DNA of 64,000 nt, from NCBI GenBank assembly GCA_015178975.1, contig WHVD01000009.1, positions 1,364,001 through 1,428,000 of the forward strand, written 5' to 3'. Below the pieces are notes generated by a model that saw only the letters and a program-made list of their open reading frames with translations, ran no database searches and was not told the DNA's origin. This stretch comes from Hysterangium stoloniferum. Its lineage: Eukaryota; Basidiomycota; Agaricomycetes; Hysterangiales; Hysterangiaceae. Position numbers and translations under genes: made by a program. This document shows positions 13,721 through 63,885 of the stretch, piece by piece; position 1 is the first letter of the stretch; each line of letters begins with the position of its first letter.

Positions 13721-13725
13721 GGAAG

Positions 13726-14268
13726 TGTTAAGTGCCGTGTCGGGAACTTATTCCAGAACTATCGGAAAGTCACCAGAAGTCAGGAACTATCGGATAGGGT
13801 CAGGACATCGGCTTCAGCTTATGTGCTGCGCCTCTACGCAAACACTCAAAGTCCTTAATTTCAGAAGTGAGACTTACGATGGAAGATATGGATATTCAGA
13901 GTTCCAAAGAGTTCCAAATATCGAGTGTACAGAAAGACGGGAGAAGGAATAAGAAACTAAGTCAATATCAGATCTAAGGTGAGGTACAAATTCGCGGAAA
14001 CTAATATAAGTCTTCTCGTTATTGTACTACAAACTAAGACCATAATAAGATGGAAACAGAAATAATCTTAAAATGGAAATACAATAAGACATATCAGGGA
14101 GACAATATTCCGAAATGGGAATATAAGAAACAAACGAGTGAATACTTGTCAACGGACAAATTACCAAATGCAGAACAAGGGAAGAATGCAGAAGATACGG
14201 TAACTATGATGTTCCGTAGTCGGAGATCGGAAGTCGGATATTGAAACATCTGGGAACGGGTCGTAACA
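13726..14268 (-). repeat. 3' LTR of E1
   Basis: 543 bp, TGTTAAGTG...GTAACA. It has an 11-bp tandem duplication (AGAGTTCCAA twice) relative to the other LTR. Confidence 0.92.
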
Positions 14269-14396
14269 GTACCCCCCTGTTAGGCCAAAATCCCATAGAG
14301 GCAATTAGGTACTGAGTGATTGAAGCGACGGCTGATTATTATGTGTCATGAAATTTACGCAATTCTGGAGGTGAGAGTTTCGGCTGATGTTCTGAG

Positions 14397-14404
14397 TATA
14401 AAAA
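14397..14404 (+). promoter_or_regulatory. TATA box upstream of the antisense gene of E1
   Basis: TATAAAAA lies on the plus strand 121 nt before the ATG at 14525 and outside the LTR. This fits an independent promoter for the antisense gene, although no start site can be proven from sequence. Confidence 0.45.
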
Positions 14405-14524
14405 CCTCCAAATATTCGAATTAATATTTTTGTTTCTTTATCCACAACTTGTATGTTGATTCGTCGGCCTCTATTCATTACTACCCCAGAAGATTCACAT
14501 ACCGAAATTGCTGTACTTCAAAAA

Positions 14525-15586
14525 ATGTCGAAGGTCACAGAACTTCAACAAAAACGACAAAGGATGGAGGAGTTGAAGCGATGACAGGAGGAGGAGGAGA
14601 AGGCATTGATGCAGGAGTTGAAAGATGCGGAAGAGGCGGAAAAACGGGAGTTGGAGCGAGCGAAGGCAGAAAATGAAGTGTGGATCCGGAAAATGGTGGA
14701 GGCTCAGAGAAAGAAGGAAGAGGCGGAAAAGTTACAGCAGGAGTCAGAGGTGGCGAAGAAACATGAGGAGATAAGGGAAGGAAAGGTAAGTGCCATCCAT
14801 AGATTCCATGGTTTCAACCGATAACTATTGGGTACAGCGAAAAGCTGTGGAGGTGGGGGTAGAGAGAGAGGCTGGACCTTCGAGTCCTAAAGTAAGTGCA
14901 TCTACAAAAGGCCAATATTTGATTGACTTCCGAAACAGAAGCCAAAGGTCAAGGCTCCAGAACAGATGGAAGTGGTCCATGAAAATCAGTGTTATCGATG
15001 TTCCATACGGAATATGACATGTTGGAAACAGAAGGTAAAATGGGGTGGAACTTGCTATCCCTGCACAGTTCTTAAACTTCCATGCACTCTTGCCTCGAAA
15101 AGGGTTCCAAAAGGTGAGAAGCCTCAGAAAACTAATGATGCGGAAAGTTCAGGAGCGGCCAAAGCTGTGGAAACTGAGGTGCCAAAAATGGATAGTACGG
15201 GCATGGAGCTCCTCAAGGATACCGTTGGTGTGTTAGTTTTTATCAGGACGGAAGTCAAGAAAATGCGGGATACACTAGATCGCCATAATGAAATCCAGGA
15301 AAAAGGCTTCCGTTCGTTGGTCTGAAACTTCCGGAGGCAAAATGAATTCCTGGAGAAAGTAATGGTTAGCATCGGTGTTATCGCAGTTTCTGAGAGATTT
15401 TCCAATAAGGCACGGGAACACCCTAATGATCCATTGGCAGAATGTGTCGAAAAAAGGTGGGAGTCAGGAAATGGGCCAGAAAGTGAAGATGAAGAGGTAC
15501 AGGATATGGTGGAAAGTGTAGAGATTGCGGATGATATGGGAGTAGAAATGGAAGGAGGATTCGGGGTGTCAGAGACTTTAAAATAG
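14525..15586 (+). pseudogene. Antisense Zn2Cys6-like coiled-coil gene carried by E1
   Basis: Exons 14525-14785, 14838-14891 and 14939-15586 (phase-0 GT-AG introns of 52 and 47 nt, both donors GTAAGT) give about 320 residues. It runs opposite to gag-pol. Order: a charged coiled coil rich in E, K and Q (residues about 5-87), a short linker, then six cysteines spaced C-x2-C-x6-C-x10-C-x2-C-x6-C in exon 3 (CYRC...C, then CYPC...C), then an amphipathic segment and an acidic tail. The cysteine spacing is that of Gal4-type Zn(II)2Cys6 DNA-binding domains, though the usual run of basic residues is weak. Two in-frame TGA codons (14582 and 15323) interrupt it. It ends 95 nt from the pol stop. The same gene with the same introns occurs at 54.4-54.9 and 62.7-63.6 kb. 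Confidence 0.75.
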
Positions 15587-15680
15587 ATGCGAATAAATTT
15601 GACTTGTATGATTTCAAAACGAGTGTGATATTGGAAGTATTGGAAGTGTCGGAAACTGAACAGAAAGAAAACAGAAAGGG

Positions 15681-16886
15681 TCAGAGTGATGATAAAGGAC
15701 CAGGTTTGCTTGGATAAGCTGTGTGGAAATCAGTAACAATTTCCATAGCGTGTCCGAGTTCCATGGCCAATATCCATGAAGTTTCCTCATTGGTACCTTC
15801 ATAACCTGCCCATTTGACTAAATAGAGCAATTTACAAGTACGTCAGCGATTGTCGATTTTAGAATCCAAAATTTTGGAAACTTCAAATTCGGGTTCTCCG
15901 TCAATGATGACCGGAGGGGACGGAGGTTGAATACATTCCGGGATTTTGTTAGGAACACAGGGTTCTAACATGGAAATGTGGAAAATGGGGTGAACTGCTC
16001 GCATACTATCGGGAAGTCGGAGAGTCCATGAGAGTGAACCGGCTTGTGCTATAATTTCAAAAGGGCGTAAGAATTTCTCAGCGAGTTTTTTAGAAGGTCA
16101 GGTAGTACGGAAGAATTGAGCTTTTACAAAAACCTGATCACCAATTTTAAAATTAGGAGGCGGGATCCTGTTTTTGTCTGCGGAACATTGATAATATTCC
16201 TGTGTGGAAGAAATAGCTTTCCGAAGTTCTTGATGTAATTCGTTGAGGTCGGTAATAAATTCTTGAGCACGGACAGAAGCCAAATCTCGTTCGGAATGTA
16301 CAGTGAGATTCGGATTACAGCCTTTGTTGGCAAAAAAAGGAGATACGCCGGTAGTTGCATTCGGAGAGTTGTTGTAGGTGAATTCCACAATCGGAAGAAG
16401 GGATTTCCAGTTGTCCTGTTGATAATTGCAATAGATGCGGAGATATTGTTCCAATGTTTGATTTACATGTTCCGTTTGTCCATCACCTTCTGGGTGATAT
16501 CCCAAGGTGAAGTGTAGTTTCATGTTGAGGGTTTTTCTGAGGGCTTGGAAGAAATGGGAGACGAACTTGGAGCCTCAATCGGAAGTTACATGAGACGGAA
16601 CTCTGTGATTGGAAAATATGTGAATAATGAAAAGTTCCGCTAATTGTAAGGACATGATTGTATCATGAGTGGGTATGAAAATGCCTTGTTTTGAGAATCG
16701 ATCCACAACAACTAGAATGGATGTAAAGCCTTCGGAAGTCGGGAGTTGTTCGATAAAATCCATGGAAATTGAGTTCCAGGGTTTTTCTGGTATCAGGAGT
16801 TGCTTGAGAAGGCCGTATGGCTTATGCCTCTGGGTCTTAGAGCATAAGCAGGTGGTGCATGACTTACAGAACTGGGTTATGAAATC
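15681..16886 (-). pseudogene. E1 integrase core and C-terminal chromodomain
   Basis: The minus strand reads the integrase of a Ty3 element. The catalytic triad appears as D in SMDFIEQLP, D in VPSHVTSD and E in GDGQTEHVNQTLEQY. After the core, a basic linker leads to a chromodomain (EFEVSKILDSKI, then LLYLVKWAGYEG and ETSWI), which binds methylated histone tails in related elements. The gene ends in TGA at 15683-15681. The stop after VTSD (about 16577) and the stop before PSKKLAEKF near 16098 break the frame, so active integrase is unlikely. Confidence 0.85.
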
Positions 16887-18762
16887 TCAGAGGTTGGGCC
16901 AAGTATATTCTCTACAGATTAAACCAAGGGTATTGTTAATGCCGTAATGTCCGGAGATTGGATGATCGTGTTTATACTGAAGTATGCGGAGTCGGAGATT
17001 GTTGGAATCTGGAACGTAGATACGTCCATCGAGATGGATAAAACCTTGAGAGTCTTGTGACCATTGGGGTTGGTTGGGATTGTCAGGAACTTCTAGGTGT
17101 GGCTTGAGAGCCGGATCGGAAGTGAGTGCGGAAAGGATATCTTGATGTAATTGCTCAATGTCCATAATCATGATGCTATGCATAATTGGATAGTAGAGGG
17201 AAGTTGCGTGAATAGATGTGGAAAGTTGTTGTGTTGTAAAGACTGGTTTCAAGTTATGTGGATTAACAATGGCATAGTTACTTTCCCCCTCTTTAGGATA
17301 GATGTCCCATCGTCGAGTCATGGCATCTGGTTTTCCACCAAGACGTCCGGGTCGGAAACGGATAATCATGTTGAAAGCAGAAAGGAATTCGGACCAGTGG
17401 GTCTGCTGGCGGGTTAAAAGTTTAGTGGTAGAAAAATATTTGAGATTTTTGTGATCAGTAACAACGTCAATGGGAGTTGTGGAACCTTCGAGATAATGGC
17501 GCCAATGTTTGAAAGCTTCAAAAATTGCCAAAAGTTCCTTATCATGAATGTCATAGACACTTTCAGTGTCTGAGAAAGAAATGCGACCGGATGAATTTCA
17601 CCGTCGGAATCTTGAATGGAAAGAATCGCGGCAATTGCATAATCAGAAGCATTGGTTTCCACAATAATCGGAACATCAGGTTTCCAATGGGAAAGAATCG
17701 GGGCAGAAGTGAAAGCATTTTTTAAAGTCTGGAAGGCAGAGTGGCATTTGTCGTCAAAAACCCATGGTTGAGTTTTATGGGTAAGACAAGTGAGCAGTAC
17801 TGTAATGTCTGAGTAGTTCCGAATAAAATGACGGTAAAAGTTGGCGAAACCTAAAAATGACTGAATGTCCTTGACTTTCCATGGTTCGGGCCAGTCATGG
17901 ACAACTTGAACCTTGGTTTCATCCATACAGAGACCATCAGGTCCGATAATGAAACCTAAGTATTCAATAGAATCCATGTCAAAGTAGCATTTTTTACCAT
18001 TGGTGAAAAGACCATTTTTACGGAGTCTTCAGAAGACTTCATGGACCTGTTCATTGTGAAGAGCGGGATCCTCGGAAAATACCAAAATGTCTCCAAATAG
18101 ACTATAACACATATGTCAAGCATGTCGGAAAATATATCATTAACAAAACATTGAAAAGCGGAAGGGGGATTGGTAAGGCCGAACGGCATAACCAACCATT
18201 CAAAGGATCCATAGCGAGTCCGAAAAGCAGTTTTCCATTCATCACCCTCGGCAATTCGGACCAAATGATAGGCGTGTTTGAGGTCTATTTTGGTGTAGAT
18301 CCGAGCTTTCCGTAGGGCATCGAGTAAATCGGTAATGAGTGGAAGTGGGTACTTATCTTTCCATGTGATGGAATTTAATCCTCTGAAATCGACACAGAGT
18401 CGAAGGGAGCCATCCTTCTTTCTGATGAAAAGGACGGGTGCTCCATACGGAGACTTTGAGGGATGGATAAAACCTATCGACAGATGTTCATCCAGGAACT
18501 CCCGAATAGACAAAAGTTCTGATTGGGATAATGGGTAAATAGGTCCTAATGGAGGGTTTGAACCGGGCTCAATATCGATTTTTAAGTTGTAGGGCCTATG
18601 TGGTGCAAGCCTGTCAGCTTTTTGCTTACTGAAAATGTCCATGAAATCATGGTATTTTTCGGGAACTCCTTCCAGGTCAGCTTTTAGCTCGGATAATTCT
18701 GGAGTCGCAAAACATCCAGATGCTTCATCAACTTTTAAGCTGATTGAAAAACACTGAACCAT
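16887..18762 (-). pseudogene. E1 reverse transcriptase, RNase H and integrase zinc domain
   Basis: The reverse transcriptase is clear from [28 protein letters not shown] and VMPFGLTN. The catalytic YLDD box is destroyed: at 18091-18096 one base is missing, so the frame reads VYLETFW where the E3 copy has VYLDDIL. The connection and RNase H follow in another frame (QSFLGFANFYRHF, TNASDYAIAAIL). The last frame, 16887-17531, holds the RNase H end and the integrase HH region ([10 protein letters not shown]). The copy cannot reverse transcribe. Confidence 0.88.
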
Positions 18763-18910
18763 CCAGTTTACTCACCCTAACAAATACCGAAGCGTTGATG
18801 AGAGAGATTTTTGGAGGCACGGAGGTTTCGGTAGAAGCTGGAGATGCCGCTGATGCCGAAAAGGCGTTGGCCAGAAGAGACGCTGCAGGAGGAACTGAAG
18901 TGTTGGGAAT

Positions 18911-19279
18911 TCAGAAATTAATACTGCCCAATACCCAGTCAATCAACGGATTATATCGGGTGAGCCAGTTGTATCCAAGAACTACCGAACAACTAGAGTC
19001 CAACTGTGTTATGAAAAAAGTAACCGTCTGGGATGTTCCACAAGGGAACCGGATAGACATGTCGCAGGCTTGGGTAATTGCCATATTGCTAGTGCCATCA
19101 AACAAACGCAAGGAAATTGCAGGAACAGAATGGAGTTTCAGATTATGTTTCGTGGCAAAGGTGGTATCTACAAAACAGTGTGTGGAGCCGGAATCTATCT
19201 GAGCTCGGAACACTAAATTACCAAGAAAGTCAGAAACGAGTTTTACAAATAATGAATCGGGATTAGAGAGAGTGGACAC
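18911..19279 (-). pseudogene. E1 aspartic protease
   Basis: Retroviral-type protease that would release gag and pol proteins. The active-site triad is DSGS in [19 protein letters not shown] and VVLGYNWL follow, as usual in Ty3 proteases. The segment is open, but it is out of phase with its gag and RT neighbours. Homologous segments occur twice at 56.0-57.2 kb. Confidence 0.85.
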
Positions 19280-19339
19280 GTTGAGACGGATAACCTCGGA
19301 AACACGGAGAGAGTCAACGCAACCCTCTGTCTGTGCAGA

Positions 19340-20581
19340 TTCTGGAGGGTTGCTTACTCTTTTTTCGGCTCCGTGGTGGGTTTTTCCTTAGACGTTGTAG
19401 TCATAGTGGAAGTTGCCGCGCAGGCCTTGGAAGAGTTAGATTTAACGGTACAGTCGAAAACCTTGTGTCCACCTTTCCCGCAGAAAAGGCAGAGGTTGTT
19501 GTCCATACATCATTGTTTCTCCTTCGGGGTGAGTTTACCGTCAGTACCCAACAAATGGGAAATGTCTGGTTTATCGGAAGTTGACTGTTTTTCCTTGTTG
19601 GATTTCTTGTCTTTCTTCCGGTCAGAGTTTGATTTGCCAGTATGAGTGCCAGAGTTGCTGGTGTTATTGCCTGAGTTGTTGCCAGAAGACTTGCTAGTTG
19701 ACGCCTTGTTATTCTGAGAACGTTCCGTCGGGTTCTCTCGAGAGACCTCGGCTTTCATTCCCAATAACGGGCATCGGATGTTTGAGCTTTAATCCACATG
19801 AGTTGGAGAGTTTTCGGCTTTCCATCTTTGCAGATCTCGTCTTTAAGGCGTGATGGAAGTCCCCTATAGAAATGGTGCCTGAGGGCGGAATCGTCCCATC
19901 CACATTGTGCGGCGAGGGTATTGAACTTGACGAGATAATCGGAAACTCGTTGATTGTCCTTCATCTTGAGCGTCATTAATTCATTTTCTGCTTCGCCAGA
20001 TTGATCATAAGGTCCGAAATTAGTTTCCAGTTCTTCCACAAAAGCGTCCCAGTCATCGGGCCATACAGGTGTCTCGTCGGATATTCCGGATAGTCCAGGT
20101 TCGAACCAATCTTGAGTGGTATCCTTGAGATAAGAGAGCGTGAAATTGACTTTTCAACTGTCGGATTTAAATGCGTGGGTCGATCACGGAAACTGAAACG
20201 GCATTGGAGAAGGAAATTCTTCAATTTTTTCGGATCCTTGCCGGTAAATGGTTTGGGTTCTTTGACTCCAGTGTGGGATGATTCTTTACTATCCTCAGCG
20301 TATTTCAAATAGTCAGTGAATTTCACAATGGAGTTGATAAACAACATTTCAGTCAGTTCATCGGAAGATTTCTTTTTCGATGTCTCCAGCTGATCTTCTG
20401 CTTCGTTGTTGGAAGTGTGGGGAATATTGGTGTCCCTCGTTACCTCGGTAACCTCCTCGGTGACTTCTTCGACTGAAGCTGATGTTGTCGGCTGAATTGG
20501 GGTTTCGGGTTGAGTGGTGTAAAGTTGCAACAGGGATTGGAGTTGGGATGGTCCTTCAGCAGCTTTGCATTTTGGACCCAT
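19340..20581 (-). pseudogene. E1 gag with CCHC zinc knuckle
   Basis: Gag starts at ATG 20581 (MGPKCKAAEGPSQLQ). The capsid region carries EPKPFTGKDPKKLKNFL and NFGPYDQSGEAENEL, typical of fungal Ty3 gag. The tail is rich in S, T, N and K. A CCHC knuckle (CLFCGKGGHKVFDC) lies near 19490-19450. There are frame changes around 20080-20180 and a TGA just before the knuckle, so gag is broken. It would package the RNA in a functional copy. Confidence 0.82.
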
Positions 20582-20612
20582 GAGCAAGTTGCAGAGTTGA
20601 GATCTGATATAC

Positions 20613-21145
20613 TGTTAAGTGCCGTGTCGGGAACTTATTCCGGAACTATTGGAAAGTCACCGGGAACTCAGGAACTATCGGATAGAGTCAGGACATCGGC
20701 TTCAGCTTATGTGCTGCACATCTACGCAAACACTCAAAGTCCTTAATTTCAGAAGTGAGACTTACGATGGAAGATATGGATATTCAGAGTTCCGAATATC
20801 GAGCGTACAAAAGATGGGAGAAGGACTAAGAAACTAAGTCGACATCAGATCTAAGGTAAAGTACAAATTCGCAGAAACTAATATAAGTCTTCTCATTATT
20901 GTACTACAAACTAAGACCATAATAAGATGGAAATGGAAATAATCTTAAAATGGAAATACAATAAGACATATCAGGGAAACAATATTCCGAAACGGGAATA
21001 TAATAAACAAATGAGTGAATACTTGTCAATGGACAAATTACCAAATGCGGAACAAGGGAAGAATGCGGAAGATACGGTAACTATGATGTTCCATAGTCGG
21101 AGATCGGAAGTCGGATATTGAAACATCTGGGAACAGGTCATAACA
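20613..21145 (-). repeat. 5' LTR of E1
   Basis: 533 bp, TGTTAAGTGCC...CATAACA. It is adjacent to the presumed primer-binding region (TATCAGA near 20603-20609, minus strand), which only loosely resembles the initiator-tRNA type. Confidence 0.92.
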
Positions 21146-21475
21146 GGAAGTAATCTATAAGTGGTAAACATTCAGGAAACATTATAGTCAGCACCCAGCA
21201 ATGCTCAGAAACTAAGTAAGTGATATGTCACACAATAGTTTTGCATTTGTTCTGCATCATGCTGGCTTTTCTTTTGTCATTGTTTTACTAGCATGCCTTG
21301 AAACATCCCTGAACATATGAGACAATGCCATAGATATACTGAAGACCTATGAAAATGTATTATACACATGAAGATCATCCTAGGACGAACAACTGAATTC
21401 ATCCACCATGAGCTTGGTATTCCACCACAAGTCATTGAACGCACTCTGAAGCTTTGGTGAGAAACTGGGGAGGTA

Positions 21476-54380: not shown

Positions 54381-54900
54381 CTAAATGCAATCTACCAAGG
54401 TACTCTGCACATTGTTGTCATGTTGCAACAAGGTGTTTTGGGTCTCAATGCCTGCTGCAATCCACCCCAATACCTCCTCCAAAACCCCCTGCTTTTCTGT
54501 GTGACCACCCACTTCCCAGGAACCGGAACCTGAGGCATCCTGCACCAGTGAGCACTTGGCCTTCAAGGGTGCACCTGGCCAGCAGCCTGGGCCCTGACCA
54601 GCCTTCTGTTAACAATCCACATTAGTCATGACAACTGGACCACTGGATCATTCTTGGTTTCCAGCTGGGCTGCAGCATTTTTCCGAGTCTTCTGTCAATA
54701 ATAAGTCAGTGGGACATTTACCAAGGACTACCCACTTACCTTTTAAGGACTTCCCTGCTCCCCTTCAGATTCCATCTTGATGTCCGCAGCTTTGCACTAT
54801 CAATACTGTTAGTAAGGACTTAAACAATTAAAATGTTTGACTTACCTTTCCCACAGCTACCATGGATGCCTTGGCATGTTACCAACAAACTCTAATGAGT
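54240..54900 (-). pseudogene. Antisense gene of chromovirus E2 (two introns conserved)
   Basis: The minus strand has exon 1 end at 54846, exon 2 at 54796-54740 (57 nt) and exon 3 from 54691. Introns 54797-54845 and 54692-54739 are GT-AG, phase 0, and sit at the same places as in E1 and E3. Exon 2 ends SP-stop-K where E3 has SPQK, a CAA to TAA change. Exon 3 carries QGPGCWPGAPLKAKCSL, matching the second half of the Zn2Cys6-like motif of E3 with one Cys lost, and then VLEEVLGWIAAGIETQNTLL. The coiled-coil exon is mostly missing. It lies directly before the E2 polypurine tract and LTR, antisense to them. Confidence 0.7.
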
Positions 54901-55236: not shown

Positions 55237-55690
55237 TCAAGGGTTTAGATCTGGAGACTGTGCTGGCCATTTCATAACCGTGTAGTCATGGTCATCAAAC
55301 CACTTTTGAGGTAGTTTTCTAGTCTTTGGATCATTATCCTGCTGGAAGATGATATCAGATGGAGTTTTTTTGTAAAACTCAAGAGATTGCTGAAGTTCAT
55401 CCTCCAAGATGGAGCAGTAAAGCTGTGAATTCATCTTCCCTTCAATTCTAGTGGTATATCCAATGCATTCCCAAAGTATGCAACCCCACATCATCACACT
55501 ACCACTACCAAACTTCAACATTCTCTCTACCTGCCTATCAGTCAACCCCTCCCACCACCCTTTTCTACACCCACTTCCTTCCATCTGACCCAAGATTATT
55601 GATTTTGGTTTCATAAGAGAATACAACTCTCTTCCAGTCCTCCAGAGTGTACTTCTGATGTCTCTTTGCCAACTGTAGTCTCTCCCTCCT
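55237..55690 (-). pseudogene. Tc1-like transposase fragment
   Basis: Minus-strand transposase of the Tc1 type, different from the one at 21.5 kb. It reads MKPKSIILGQMEGSG, then VERMLKFGSGSVMMWGCILW and IIFQQDNDPKTRK (second catalytic Asp), and WPAQSPDLNP, where the third acidic residue should follow. A one-base loss right after NP ends the frame, and the C-terminus is absent. The N-terminal DNA-binding half survives only as a short piece near 55690. It lies between the E2 LTR and a gag-protease fragment. Inactive. Confidence 0.78.
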
Positions 55691-56352
55691 GTGAGATCAT
55701 CTCAGAAGAGGGCACTTTTTCTTCACCACTCACAGACAAGCTCGGGCCTGATGAATTACCCCACAAGAAAGGCAGTATGGACAACAACCTTTTTCTCTTG
55801 TGTGGAAAGCCTGATCATTGAGTTCTGGAATGTCCATTGGTGAAAGCAAACTCTGCAAAAGGTTGTGTAGCCAAGACTCCCTCCACAGAATCCCCATTGA
55901 TGGACAAACTGTGTTCTGATCCAAAAAAGAGTAAGCAACCCCACAGACTCCATGCAGGTTGGGGGTTGCATTACCTCTCCACACATTCATGAGTTTACTC
56001 ATCTTAACACATCTACTCTTTGGAACTCTGACTTGGTTTTTATTAAACTTATGTCTGATATGATCCTGAAATTTGTTTTTTCAGCACTCATAGATTCCGG
56101 CTCAACTCATTGCTTTATAGATACAAAATTCACACAAAAAAAATCTGTTGTTGACTACCTGATAAATCCAGTCAGACTCCGACTTTTCGATGACACAAGC
56201 AATTTGGTTATCACCCAAGCTTGCAACCTATCTATCTGGTTCCCATGTGGAACATCCCAGTTGGTCACTTTCTATGTATGTGACCCAGTTAGACTCAAGT
56301 TGCTCAGTTGTCCTAGGACAAAACTGGCTTACCCAACACAATCCATTGATTG
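55690..56352 (+). pseudogene. Ty3 gag knuckle and protease, copy 1
   Basis: The plus strand starts in the gag tail (SEEGTFSSPLTDKLGPDE). A damaged zinc knuckle follows (NLFLLCGKPDH, stop, VLEC; one Cys replaced by Phe). The protease has [16 protein letters not shown], then LRLFDDTSNLVITQACNL. It ends abruptly at NPLID-like PTQSID where an LTR starts at 56353. The same stretch is repeated in copy 2 at 56673-57200, so this is a tandem duplication around an LTR. Confidence 0.75.
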
Positions 56353-59166: not shown

Positions 59167-59172
59167 CCACCT

Positions 59173-61728
59173 TGGGAGGATTGGGGGGGTTGGGAGGATT
59201 GGGAGGATTGGGGAGATTGGAGAGATTGGAGAGATTGGGGAGATTTTGGGGATTGGGAGGATCAGAGAGATTGGAGGAATTGGAGAGAGTTGAGGAATAA
59301 TTCAACTCAAACCTAAACCTAATCCCTCTGTCCAACTCCTTGATATATTTCCCTCCATCTCCCTCCCAATACTCCCATCCCAATGTCCTCAATCACTCTC
59401 CCAATACCTCCAATATCTCTTCTAATACCTTCCATCTCTCTCCATATACCTCTAATTCTCCTGCCAATACCTCCAATGTCTCTCCCAATACTCCCAACCT
59501 CTCTCCCAATACCCCCTGTTTATTCTCTCTGAGATTTGTAGGGAGTTTAAAATAGGGTCTCATTATTTTTCTCTATAACAAATAGCATTACTACCAATTA
59601 AGAATTAGTATGCTAATGTAACAAATAGACTAAGTTGTGAATAATGTACCTTAGTCCACATGATGGGGAAAATTGACTGAGGTACATATGAGAGATTAAA
59701 AGGGGGTAATGATAGGAAAAAAAAAACAATTGAAGTAAAGATTAAGTGGTGGTAAGATGTGGAATAAAGCAAGGTTGATAAATGATGTGATACATGATCA
59801 AGGGTTTTCTTATTATTCTCAGGGACACTCCAACTCCACCACTCTCTCAGGTACATTTAAATATCAGTTCACAACAAGTTCACATGTGGCTGCACAAAAG
59901 CTGTGGTTTTTTCTCTCTCAGTACTCCATCTATTAGCCATTTGGATCTCTTGCAGATATTAGTTCTACACTGTTCAACTGGTCTAGCTGTAGAACTACTA
60001 CACCATTGAAACAGTTCTAAATAAATGAACATGTCATACAAGTAAGGAAGAAATGTTATTCTGCTGGAAACAAGGTTTGCCTTGCACTAACACTTTTTAT
60101 ATATTATCCTACTGCCACCAAAACTATAAAGATCATGACTGGAATTCTGAATTATTGTAACGGAGTATACCAGAAAGTGCTCTATAAGCCAATGAAACAT
60201 ATATCAAGAGAAGGAAATATCATTCTAATAGTAATAGGAATTTATCTTACTACAATAGTTTACATATATTCTACACAACTAAAGAGAATGGTGATAACCA
60301 TTATAAGATTATGATACAGATCATCACAAAAATGATATTATTTATAACAGAACCTTCTGCACATTCATCCCTCAGATAGCAATTATTCTAGCTGTTATGC
60401 AGTTGTTATTTGAATCACATTGGTAGCAATTTTTAGTTTGGCTATACTTTGCCATGTTTCAACAGTGCAACAGTTGAATAGTGTAAGACTAATATCTGCT
60501 GCAAATAAAAACAGCTAATAGATTGAGTGATAAGGGGGAATAAACCACTGCTTTATGCCAACCACATGTAAAGATACATTTGGAGAATAATGGAAAGAGA
60601 AGAATGATGAGAGCCTATTACCACCTCACAGTGTATGGTATGTCACTACCTTACACATTCTGGGTATTCAAATATTGACTGCTTTTAGTGAAACTTCTAG
60701 ATGTAGAATGCATTTGATACTAAGGAGGACAATACAGAGGAACAGAACAGATGTCACTAAGGATGTTGAGTACATAGTGGGATACTATGAGTATAATGGA
60801 ACAGATAGAATTATGCAATTGGTGAAATGTGGATAGACATGATTACACATTACAGCGTTATTGATATGGAAGTATTGGGAGGAAATTAGAAGTCTTTGGG
60901 AGGAGATTGAGGGTGTTGGGAGAGAGGTTGGGAGTATTAGGAGGGAGGTTAGACATTGGGAAGGAGGTTGGAGGTACTAGCAGAGAGAGATAGAAGGCAT
61001 TAGAAGAGGTATTAAGGTATTGAAGTTGATTGAATGGTTTGGAAGGCACTAAAAGAGATACTGAAGGTATTGGGAGAGTGATTGAGGACATTGGGATGGG
61101 AGTATTGGGAGAGAGATGGAGGGAAATATATCAAGGAGTTGGACAGAGGAATTAGGTTTAGGATTGAGTTGAATTATTCCTCAACTTTCTCCAATTCCTC
61201 CAATCTCTCTGATCCCCCCAATTCCTCCAATTCTCCCAATTCCCCCAATTCCCCCAATTCCCCCAATCTCCCCAATCCCTCTAATCCCTCTAATCCCCCC
61301 AATCCCCCCAATCCCCCCAATCCCTCCAATCCCCCTAATCCTTCCAATCCCTCCAATCCCCCAATCTCCCCAATCCTCCCAATCCTCCCAATCCCCCTAA
61401 TCCCCCCAATCTCCCCAATCCCCCCAATCTCCCCAATCTCTCCAATCCTCCCAATCCCCCTAATCTCCCCAATCCCTCCAATCTCCCCAATCTCTCCAAT
61501 CCTCCCAATCCCCTAATCCCCCCAATCTCCCCAATCTCCCCAATCCCTCCAATCGCCCCAATCTCTCCAATCCTCCCAATCCCCCTAATCTCCCCAATCT
61601 CCCCAATCTCCCCAATCCTCCCAATCCTCCTGATCCTCCCAATCCCCCCAATGTCCCTAATCCTCCCAATCCTTCCAATCCTCCCAATCCTCCCAATCCT
61701 CCCAATCCTCCCAATCTCCCTAATTCCC
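59173..61728. repeat. Foldback structure with minisatellite ends
   Basis: Left end 59173-59291 is a run of GGGAGGATTGG-like units. Right end 61190-61728 is the same in reverse complement, much longer. Next to them, 59292-59420 and 61065-61185 are inverted copies of unique sequence. The 2.56 kb unit interrupts the E3 integrase. Open frames through the arrays are low-complexity artefacts. Confidence 0.8.
59550..60860. other. Foldback interior, no gene recognised
   Basis: AT-rich sequence without credible frames, transposase or splice pattern. Confidence 0.45.
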
Positions 61729-63600: not shown

Positions 63601-63885
63601 TTGGGCCACACTGAAAGGTGCCCAATATGGAGTGCCTGTGGAGGGCCTGGCAGTTGGCTTTGCCCCTTCACAGTGTTGGTTTTGGTCCCATAGTGTCAAC
63701 GGTGGGGGTAATAAAGACGAAGAAATTTCATTTTTTCAAATTTTTATATAGGCTCATTGCATCTGAACCTTACCTTCCAGATCACCTGACTCTTTGACAC
63801 ATACATGTAACTGACATGACCTTTGACACATGCGCGTAGCCAACAAGAACCTTATCGAGGTCTAGAGCCTCTTTGGGACATCGGC

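Follow-up and report, generated by a model that had tools for sequence, protein, structure and literature searches.

An intron-bearing antisense protein gene carried by chromoviruses of Hysterangium stoloniferum, with a possible role in regulating its own element

A chromovirus and the gene on its opposite strand

A complete, LTR-flanked retrotransposon lies on the minus strand at 13726–21145 of the window, that is, of the whole 64,000-nucleotide stretch of H. stoloniferum DNA that was analysed. The host is a truffle-like fungus of the Hysterangiales (Agaricomycetes, Phallomycetidae). A 5-bp target duplication, GGAAG, is found at either flank, and with it the insertion spans 13721–21150. The 3′ LTR (13726–14268, minus strand) has TGTTA...TAACA ends next to the duplication and is 94.4% identical to the 5′ LTR (20613–21145, minus strand); 27 of the 30 differences between the two are transitions. 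The same tendency is seen in all nine elements having two usable LTRs (L009, L010, L011, L014, L015, L021, L025, L026 and the window element), where transitions make up 86–100% of LTR-pair differences, as expected from cytosine deamination. A probable polypurine tract (14269–14279, minus strand), which reads CAGGGGGGTAC, adjoins the 3′ LTR, and no other 20-nt block of LTR and leader is as well conserved as 14265–14284, with its diversity of 0.006. The 3′ part of pol (15681–17369, minus strand) encodes the integrase and the chromodomain. It is in pieces in the window copy, and the frames of this copy put the chromodomain last and the end of pol at 15681–15683. RVT_1 and Integrase_H2C2 were recognised in two of the five window pol pieces scanned, the latter in this 3′ part, and two sister copies, L048 and L052, were scanned as well and both gave Pfam rve, SH3_Tf2-1 and Chromo above cut-off. 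With integrase followed by chromodomain, paired LTRs and a short target duplication, the window element is a chromovirus, i.e. a Ty3/Gypsy element with a chromodomain.

Between the chromodomain and the 3′ LTR the plus strand carries a further gene, which opposes gag-pol and is tail to tail with pol. Such a gene had been proposed from the DNA letters without database searches (the sequence-only reading), and it is indeed present there. Of 38 copies looked at, 32 were alignable at the TATA box that this reading assigned to it (14397–14403), and 29 of these read TATAAAA. Exon 1 (14453–14785) begins with an ATG present in 34 of 36 copies and encodes a short N-terminus followed by a Glu/Lys-rich, probably helical segment. 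Exon 2 (14838–14891) encodes 18 amino acids of the pattern RKA.EV..EGE..SPK. It stands between intron 1 (14786–14837, 52 nt, 51–57 nt among copies) and intron 2 (14892–14938, 47 nt, 46–51 nt among copies), both of which are in phase 0 and run from GTAAGT to CAG. Exon 3 (14939–15586) encodes the domain with six cysteines, spaced CX2CX6CX10CX2CX6C (14990–15085, first to last codon), then a C-terminal region and an acidic tail, and ends with a TAG stop. Right after the stop there is an AATAAA (15592–15597), a possible poly(A) signal of partial conservation: 22 of 36 copies have one close to the stop. All these features are on the plus strand. The helical segments, called a coiled coil in the sequence-only reading, are probable ones, judged from composition alone. 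The window copy of the gene is non-functional because it has two in-frame TGA codons, at 14582 in exon 1 and at 15323 in exon 3.

Copies, splice sites and selection

The genome searched comprises 111.1 Mb in 554 contigs. A DNA search found at least 40 copies of the antisense gene at 90–100% identity, the window copy counted. Two protein searches scored 150 places each, out of 887 and 894 candidates, and copy numbers given here are therefore lower bounds. After removal of duplicates, 36 distinct copies including that of the window were aligned; in later counts the rearranged copies L025 and L036 were left out and the divergent L059 and L060 taken in, which again gives 36. Codon counts also leave out L033, L037 and L050 and are based on 33 copies. 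An uninterrupted spliced frame of 334–350 amino acids is present in 10 of 36 copies; the integrase segment compared has an uninterrupted frame in 8 of 32. For exon 3, 114 of the 150 scored relatives in the genome are without a stop in the matched stretch (counted by eye).

Comparison among copies indicates that both introns are genuine, as the sequence-only reading had supposed. GT-AG borders are present at both introns in all 36 copies, the donors being GTAAGT or GTGAGT. The acceptor is CAG in 36 of 36 copies at intron 1 and in 35 of 36 at intron 2, and a branch-like TTAAC occurs within intron 2 in 31 of 36. With the window copy as reference, insertions and deletions were scored in 32 others (L025, L033 and L037 excluded). 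In exons 31 of 44 are multiples of three (17/22 in exon 1, 0/1 in exon 2 and 14/21 in exon 3), as against 0 of 38 in introns; the 3′ spacer has 14 of 77. It had been argued that introns can last in such an element because the gene is antisense to the genomic RNA. All 36 copies retain the two introns, which is what this argument leads one to expect: the genomic RNA would be the complement of the antisense gene, and retrotransposition would not remove its introns.

The copies decay mainly by transitions, and we therefore used a null in which the same mutation types are placed at random with CpG context kept. Over 150 pairs, pN/pS of the antisense gene is 0.27 compared with 0.64 under the null (ratio 0.43). 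A value near one was looked for and not found. The same test on the integrase/chromodomain segment gives 0.28 versus 0.57 (ratio 0.49). Purifying selection thus acts on the antisense gene with about the same strength as on the integrase segment of pol. By the Nei–Gojobori method and over 33 copies, pN/pS is 0.28 for exons 1 and 2 counted from 14525 and 0.26 for exon 3.

Codon positions point the same way. Mean pairwise differences at positions 1, 2 and 3 of exon 3 are 0.083, 0.081 and 0.211 (33 copies), and those of the two introns are 0.185 and 0.192; third positions of exon 3 therefore change like introns, and first and second positions at less than half that level. For exon 2 the values are 0.029, 0.027 and 0.160. 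The contrast is weaker in exon 1 (0.092, 0.124 and 0.173). The stretch from the TATA box to the ATG diverges by 0.053, which is below the introns. As to the gene model, the exons and introns of the sequence-only reading stood and its start codon did not. That reading began at 14525; the stretch 14453–14525 has a pN/pS of 0.17 and codon-position differences of 0.085, 0.058 and 0.237, and since the stretch between both ATGs is under selection, the start is taken to be the ATG at 14453, 72 nt (24 codons) further upstream.

Two other causes of low pN/pS were considered and rejected. Transition bias does not account for it, as the signal stays (0.26 versus 0.62) under a null that keeps mutation type and CpG context; of 150 pairs drawn from 528, 139 fall under all 30 simulations, and so do 41 of the 45 pairs formed by the ten uninterrupted copies. 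Overlap with pol does not account for it either, as pol ends at 15681 and the antisense gene at 15586. Low values (0.24–0.41 in three regions) were also found in one minus-strand frame; they stem from third positions shared with the gene, and this frame has many stops.

Could the locus be an antisense noncoding RNA whose reading frame is due to chance? Retrotransposons of another fungus, Blumeria hordei, have spliced antisense transcripts, and the part of that study seen reports them as noncoding, without apparent meaningful peptides (PMC10648671). The H. stoloniferum gene differs from them in its strong coding constraint. Its codon pattern contradicts a noncoding origin, pN/pS being 1.34 and 0.98 in the two wrong plus-strand frames (1.3–2.0 times their null), and so do the frame-preserving indels and the near-invariant cysteines. 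We give practically no credence to a chance frame, and the existence of a protein-coding antisense gene is near certain.

Synonymous divergence is about twice as high in exon 3 (0.36, 28 copies) as in the pol segment (0.16, 32 copies). Trees of the antisense gene (14939–15586) and the integrase (15684–16799) have three conflicts among splits of support 95 or more. Both observations may reflect exchange or recombination between sublineages.

Linkage to the element and a second family

A chromodomain query gave 1716 candidates, of which 150 were scored. Beside 110 of these 150 matches the antisense gene is found at a set distance and on the opposite strand, and a same-strand match to it within 1.5 kb is found beside none of the 150. 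Partners were taken from the 150 scored places of one protein search and 19 more of the other, picked by eye; 40 of the 150 chromodomain matches have no partner in this list. Fourteen chromodomain matches lie in a pol frame of at least 1200 amino acids. Twelve of the fourteen are partnered, and by eye all twelve are stop-free in exon 3. L064 (G000:C522:184380-184880) belongs to the 40 unpartnered matches and has an open pol frame of 1237 amino acids; a C-terminal part of its antisense gene is kept, and other sequence stands in place of the cysteine half. An open pol frame thus does not always go with an intact antisense gene.

These counts bear on whether the gene belongs to the element or to the host. 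The element might have captured it from the host and carry it as a passenger, or the host might have domesticated it, and the genome does contain 42 canonical Zn_clus domains above cut-off from which a capture might be imagined. None of these 42 places is within 3 kb of the 150 scored antisense-gene places, and a host gene would hardly recur 110 times at a fixed position next to a chromodomain. Moreover, selection is seen between separate insertions, so it acts on the element lineage and not on one domesticated locus. We consider a host origin of either kind very unlikely. The antisense gene goes with the element, and two or more divergent families of elements possess it.

The second family is also represented in the window, by an element at about 57–64 kb on the plus strand with pol from about 57.0 kb. 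We take it to be a chromovirus, from its RT similarity and from a chromodomain judged by eye. Its homologous antisense gene occupies the equivalent place on the minus strand (63691–62718), with ATG at 63691, TATA at 63750 and the cysteine spacing CX2CX6CX9CX2CX6C, and is frameshifted in the window copy; it was aligned with its relatives L061 and L062. Intron 1 of this copy (63384–63326, minus strand) begins with GTAAGT. Intron 2 (63268–63221, minus strand) begins with GCAAGT in the window copy and with GTAGGC in L061 and L062. The latter, a second-family copy, has an open frame through three exons, a TATA box and cysteines spaced CX2CX6CX9CX2CX6C in exon 3. Its exon 1 encodes 109 amino acids, rich in Glu, Ala and Arg, and the 19 amino acids of its exon 2, RKATEVESESEGEPESPQK, form a motif similar to RKAVEVEVEGEAGPSSPK of the first family. 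Intron places, intron phases and the six cysteines are common to both families. Exon 3 is 30% identical between them and the RT segment 68% identical over 186 amino acids. The antisense gene thus seems to be older than the split of the families and to change faster than RT.

Two genome searches gave 816 and 823 second-family candidates. Many copies in the latter are equal-scoring, which suggests recent spread. Open second-family frames of 341 and 339 amino acids were considered as possible intron-less retrocopies, which might have given genomic proof of splicing. This was rejected for L061, which keeps both introns and is merely stop-free in one frame; the 339-aa frame sits at G000:C93:151851-152138.

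Around the second element we noted the following. Its pol is split by an apparent insert: the RT part stops near 59.15 kb, the chromodomain resumes near 62.29 kb, and the insert holds a 9-bp minisatellite with an inverted partner (59172–59298 and 61040–61720). A probable relic of the C-terminal part of a third antisense-gene copy lies at 54381–54608 on the minus strand, identified by eye from similar wording. Genome-wide, 150 relatives of this relic were scored, 43–73% identical apart from the relic itself. It is adjoined by a minus-strand frame at 55237–55701, MKWPAQSPDLNP, which resembles the end of a Tc1/mariner transposase.

The six-cysteine domain and a possible regulatory role

The six cysteines are the sole near-invariant motif of known type in the antisense protein. 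Five of them are present in 33 of 33 copies and the first in 32; a seventh cysteine, outside the motif, is present in 25 of 33 copies only. All six are invariant across the 21 members of an alignment (A1) in which one member is of the second family. Zn(II)2Cys6 domains (PF00172) follow the spacing CX2CX6CX5-12CX2CX6-8C, and the spacings of both families fall within it. The sequence-only reading had called the cysteines Gal4-like. The spacing and its conservation bear this out, and the label stands for spacing only, as the Pfam Zn_clus cut-off is not reached (10.2 bits for L062 against 21). Zn_clus gave a weak match in 8 of the 21 members scanned, with a best E of 0.87, and was still the most frequent family matched. 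In a single hhalign comparison of shallow profiles with Gal4, Lac9 and Ppr1 the six cysteines were aligned, with a probability of 2.3% and E of 0.0074; a control with the halves swapped gave 1.7% and 0.012. In canonical zinc clusters, basic residues that contact DNA lie between the second and third cysteines. Such residues are absent from alignment A1, which reads SIRNMT, SVRDIT or NDRNTE there; a conserved Lys is found between cysteines 5 and 6 instead. The antisense protein thus resembles Gal4-type factors in cysteine spacing next to presumably helical segments, and differs from them in its score under the Pfam cut-off, in lacking the basic stretch and in having the domain in mid-protein. 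Because Zn_clus stays under cut-off and the profile comparison is not significant, we call the protein zinc-cluster-like and not a member of Zn_clus, and its zinc binding is putative.

Several features fit a nuclear regulator: a TATA box of its own by the 3′ LTR, the opposite strand, a cysteine domain by helical-looking segments and an acidic tail. In the mechanism that we propose, a TATA promoter of the gene's own, within the 3′ end of the element, would drive its transcription. The protein would dimerise through the helical segments and bind zinc through the six cysteines. It would then enter the nucleus, bind direct CGG repeats in the LTRs and regulate transcription of its own element. Judging from sequence features, we give about half of our belief to a zinc-cluster-like nuclear protein that is carried by the element and regulates the element's LTR. 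H. stoloniferum elements may in this manner bring their own regulator.

Canonical zinc clusters bind CGG triplets. The 3′ LTR of the window element has a CGG direct-repeat stretch at about 14219–14240, the copy number of which differs between copies. On the coding strand of the antisense gene, all ten LTRs tested have more CGG than expected (12–25 versus 6.2–13.5), i.e. 1.7–2.2 times the shuffled expectation in tests chosen after seeing the sequence. Part of this first-family excess is due to a 7-bp repeat that varies in number from copy to copy. CGGN4CGG is in excess (P<0.05) in seven of the ten LTRs and absent in two. The LTR stretch of the second family has 28 CGG versus 18.0 expected and four CGGN4CGG versus 0.5. 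CGG is also in excess (P<0.05) in five of nine internal tiles of one element, and in none of seven tiles elsewhere in the window; CGGN4CGG was seen once in an internal tile. It is therefore mainly the CGGN4CGG spacing that points to the LTR, and the CGG array as a regulatory target is suggestive only.

If the arrays are the target, a more specific model can be put forward. A zinc-cluster-like DNA-binding protein would recognise CGG arrays in its own LTRs and lift or set silencing there; protein and arrays would co-diversify between lineages, and the system would be a counterpart of HBZ and VANC. We hold this model tentatively and as less likely than not. As to the sign of a regulator, counteracting silencing or activating, as VANC does, is somewhat more likely than repressing, as HBZ does.

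Silencing pressure itself is likely, as the predominance of transitions in LTR pairs described above fits methylation-linked decay. The protein could also suppress host silencing without sequence specificity, acting, for example, on the RNAi or methylation machinery. Pfam scans of the antisense proteins found no similarity to a known silencing suppressor, and 30% identity of exon 3 between lineages fits element-specific targets better than a general suppressor. We regard such a suppressor as unlikely.

Six cysteines can also serve RNA binding. The protein might thus work outside transcription, as a zinc or coiled-coil protein that teams up with Gag, the integration complex or the genomic RNA. 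This would suit selection on the gene much like that on pol and the fact that Zn_clus homology is not established. On the other hand, the own TATA box and the opposite strand would separate the gene from Gag-Pol dosage, which would suit a regulator better than a part of the particle. An accessory protein of this kind appears improbable to us.

An LTR-regulating antisense protein would have several partial parallels. The antisense gene of the plant element Grande is reportedly driven by its own promoter. Retand elements have antisense ORFs between pol and the 3′ LTR, with the TRP28 domain in 97% of clusters; antisense ORFs are reported for Grande and RIRE2 too, the Grande protein is reported to be nuclear, and DNA binding has been proposed (PMC11963269, as far as the text searched goes). 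The position of the ORF is the same in the fungal element. The plant elements differ from it in host, in belonging to a non-chromovirus lineage and in the TRP28 domain, and introns are not mentioned in the text searched of the same source (PMC11963269). In our Pfam scans of the antisense proteins TRP28 (PF04195) gave no match at E up to 10.

HBZ of HTLV-1 is a spliced antisense gene at the 3′ end; for the fungal gene, splicing is predicted from the conserved splice sites. HBZ overlaps the pX region. According to the passages seen of PMC10186651, HBZ is transcribed antisense from the 3′ end of the provirus, its protein is nuclear and counters Tax, and of the related APH-2, APH-3 and APH-4 the last two suppress transcription driven by the 5′ LTR. 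There are differences: HBZ is a retroviral protein with a bZIP domain (absent in the APH proteins) where the fungal protein has six cysteines, and the HBZ promoter is TATA-less and lies in the 3′ LTR (PMC10186651), whereas the fungal TATA box is just inside the internal region.

A further partial parallel is VANC, the anti-silencing protein of Arabidopsis VANDAL, which is also element-encoded. VANDAL is a DNA transposon. In the text seen of PMC5735166, the targets of VANC are motifs of the same orientation in noncoding DNA of the element, their number varying between copies, and it is through such arrays of changing number that the targets evolve; the guessed CGG targets of the fungal protein are similarly arrayed and variable. 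Binding has been shown for VANC (PMC5735166) and is conjectural for the fungal protein.

In the portions of the literature surveyed no fungal LTR element with an antisense protein gene was found, and the passages shown of 'LTR Retrotransposons in Fungi' mention none (PMC3248453). Compared with known antisense retroelement genes, the present one is new in host kingdom, in bearing introns and in its protein domain. Accessory genes are a step from a simple retrotransposon to a complex, retrovirus-like genome. Plant antisense accessory ORFs of unknown function and deltaretroviral HBZ are earlier cases, and the fungal gene adds a further, apparently independent one. Since one genome contains ten or more uninterrupted copies, and introns that would escape removal through their strand, the function of antisense retroelement genes would become testable in a fungus.

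Relatives in databases are few. An IMG/VR scan gave 18 pattern matches, none of which was confirmed. A protein search needing shared 5-residue words, which distant fungal relatives could escape, found no homologues beyond two proteins, both hypothetical H. stoloniferum proteins and relatives of the second family's gene. That such related fragments are catalogued as hypothetical host proteins suggests that annotation overlooks these genes. One public gene model, BU17DRAFT_86143, joins exon 1 to exon 2 at the equivalent place.
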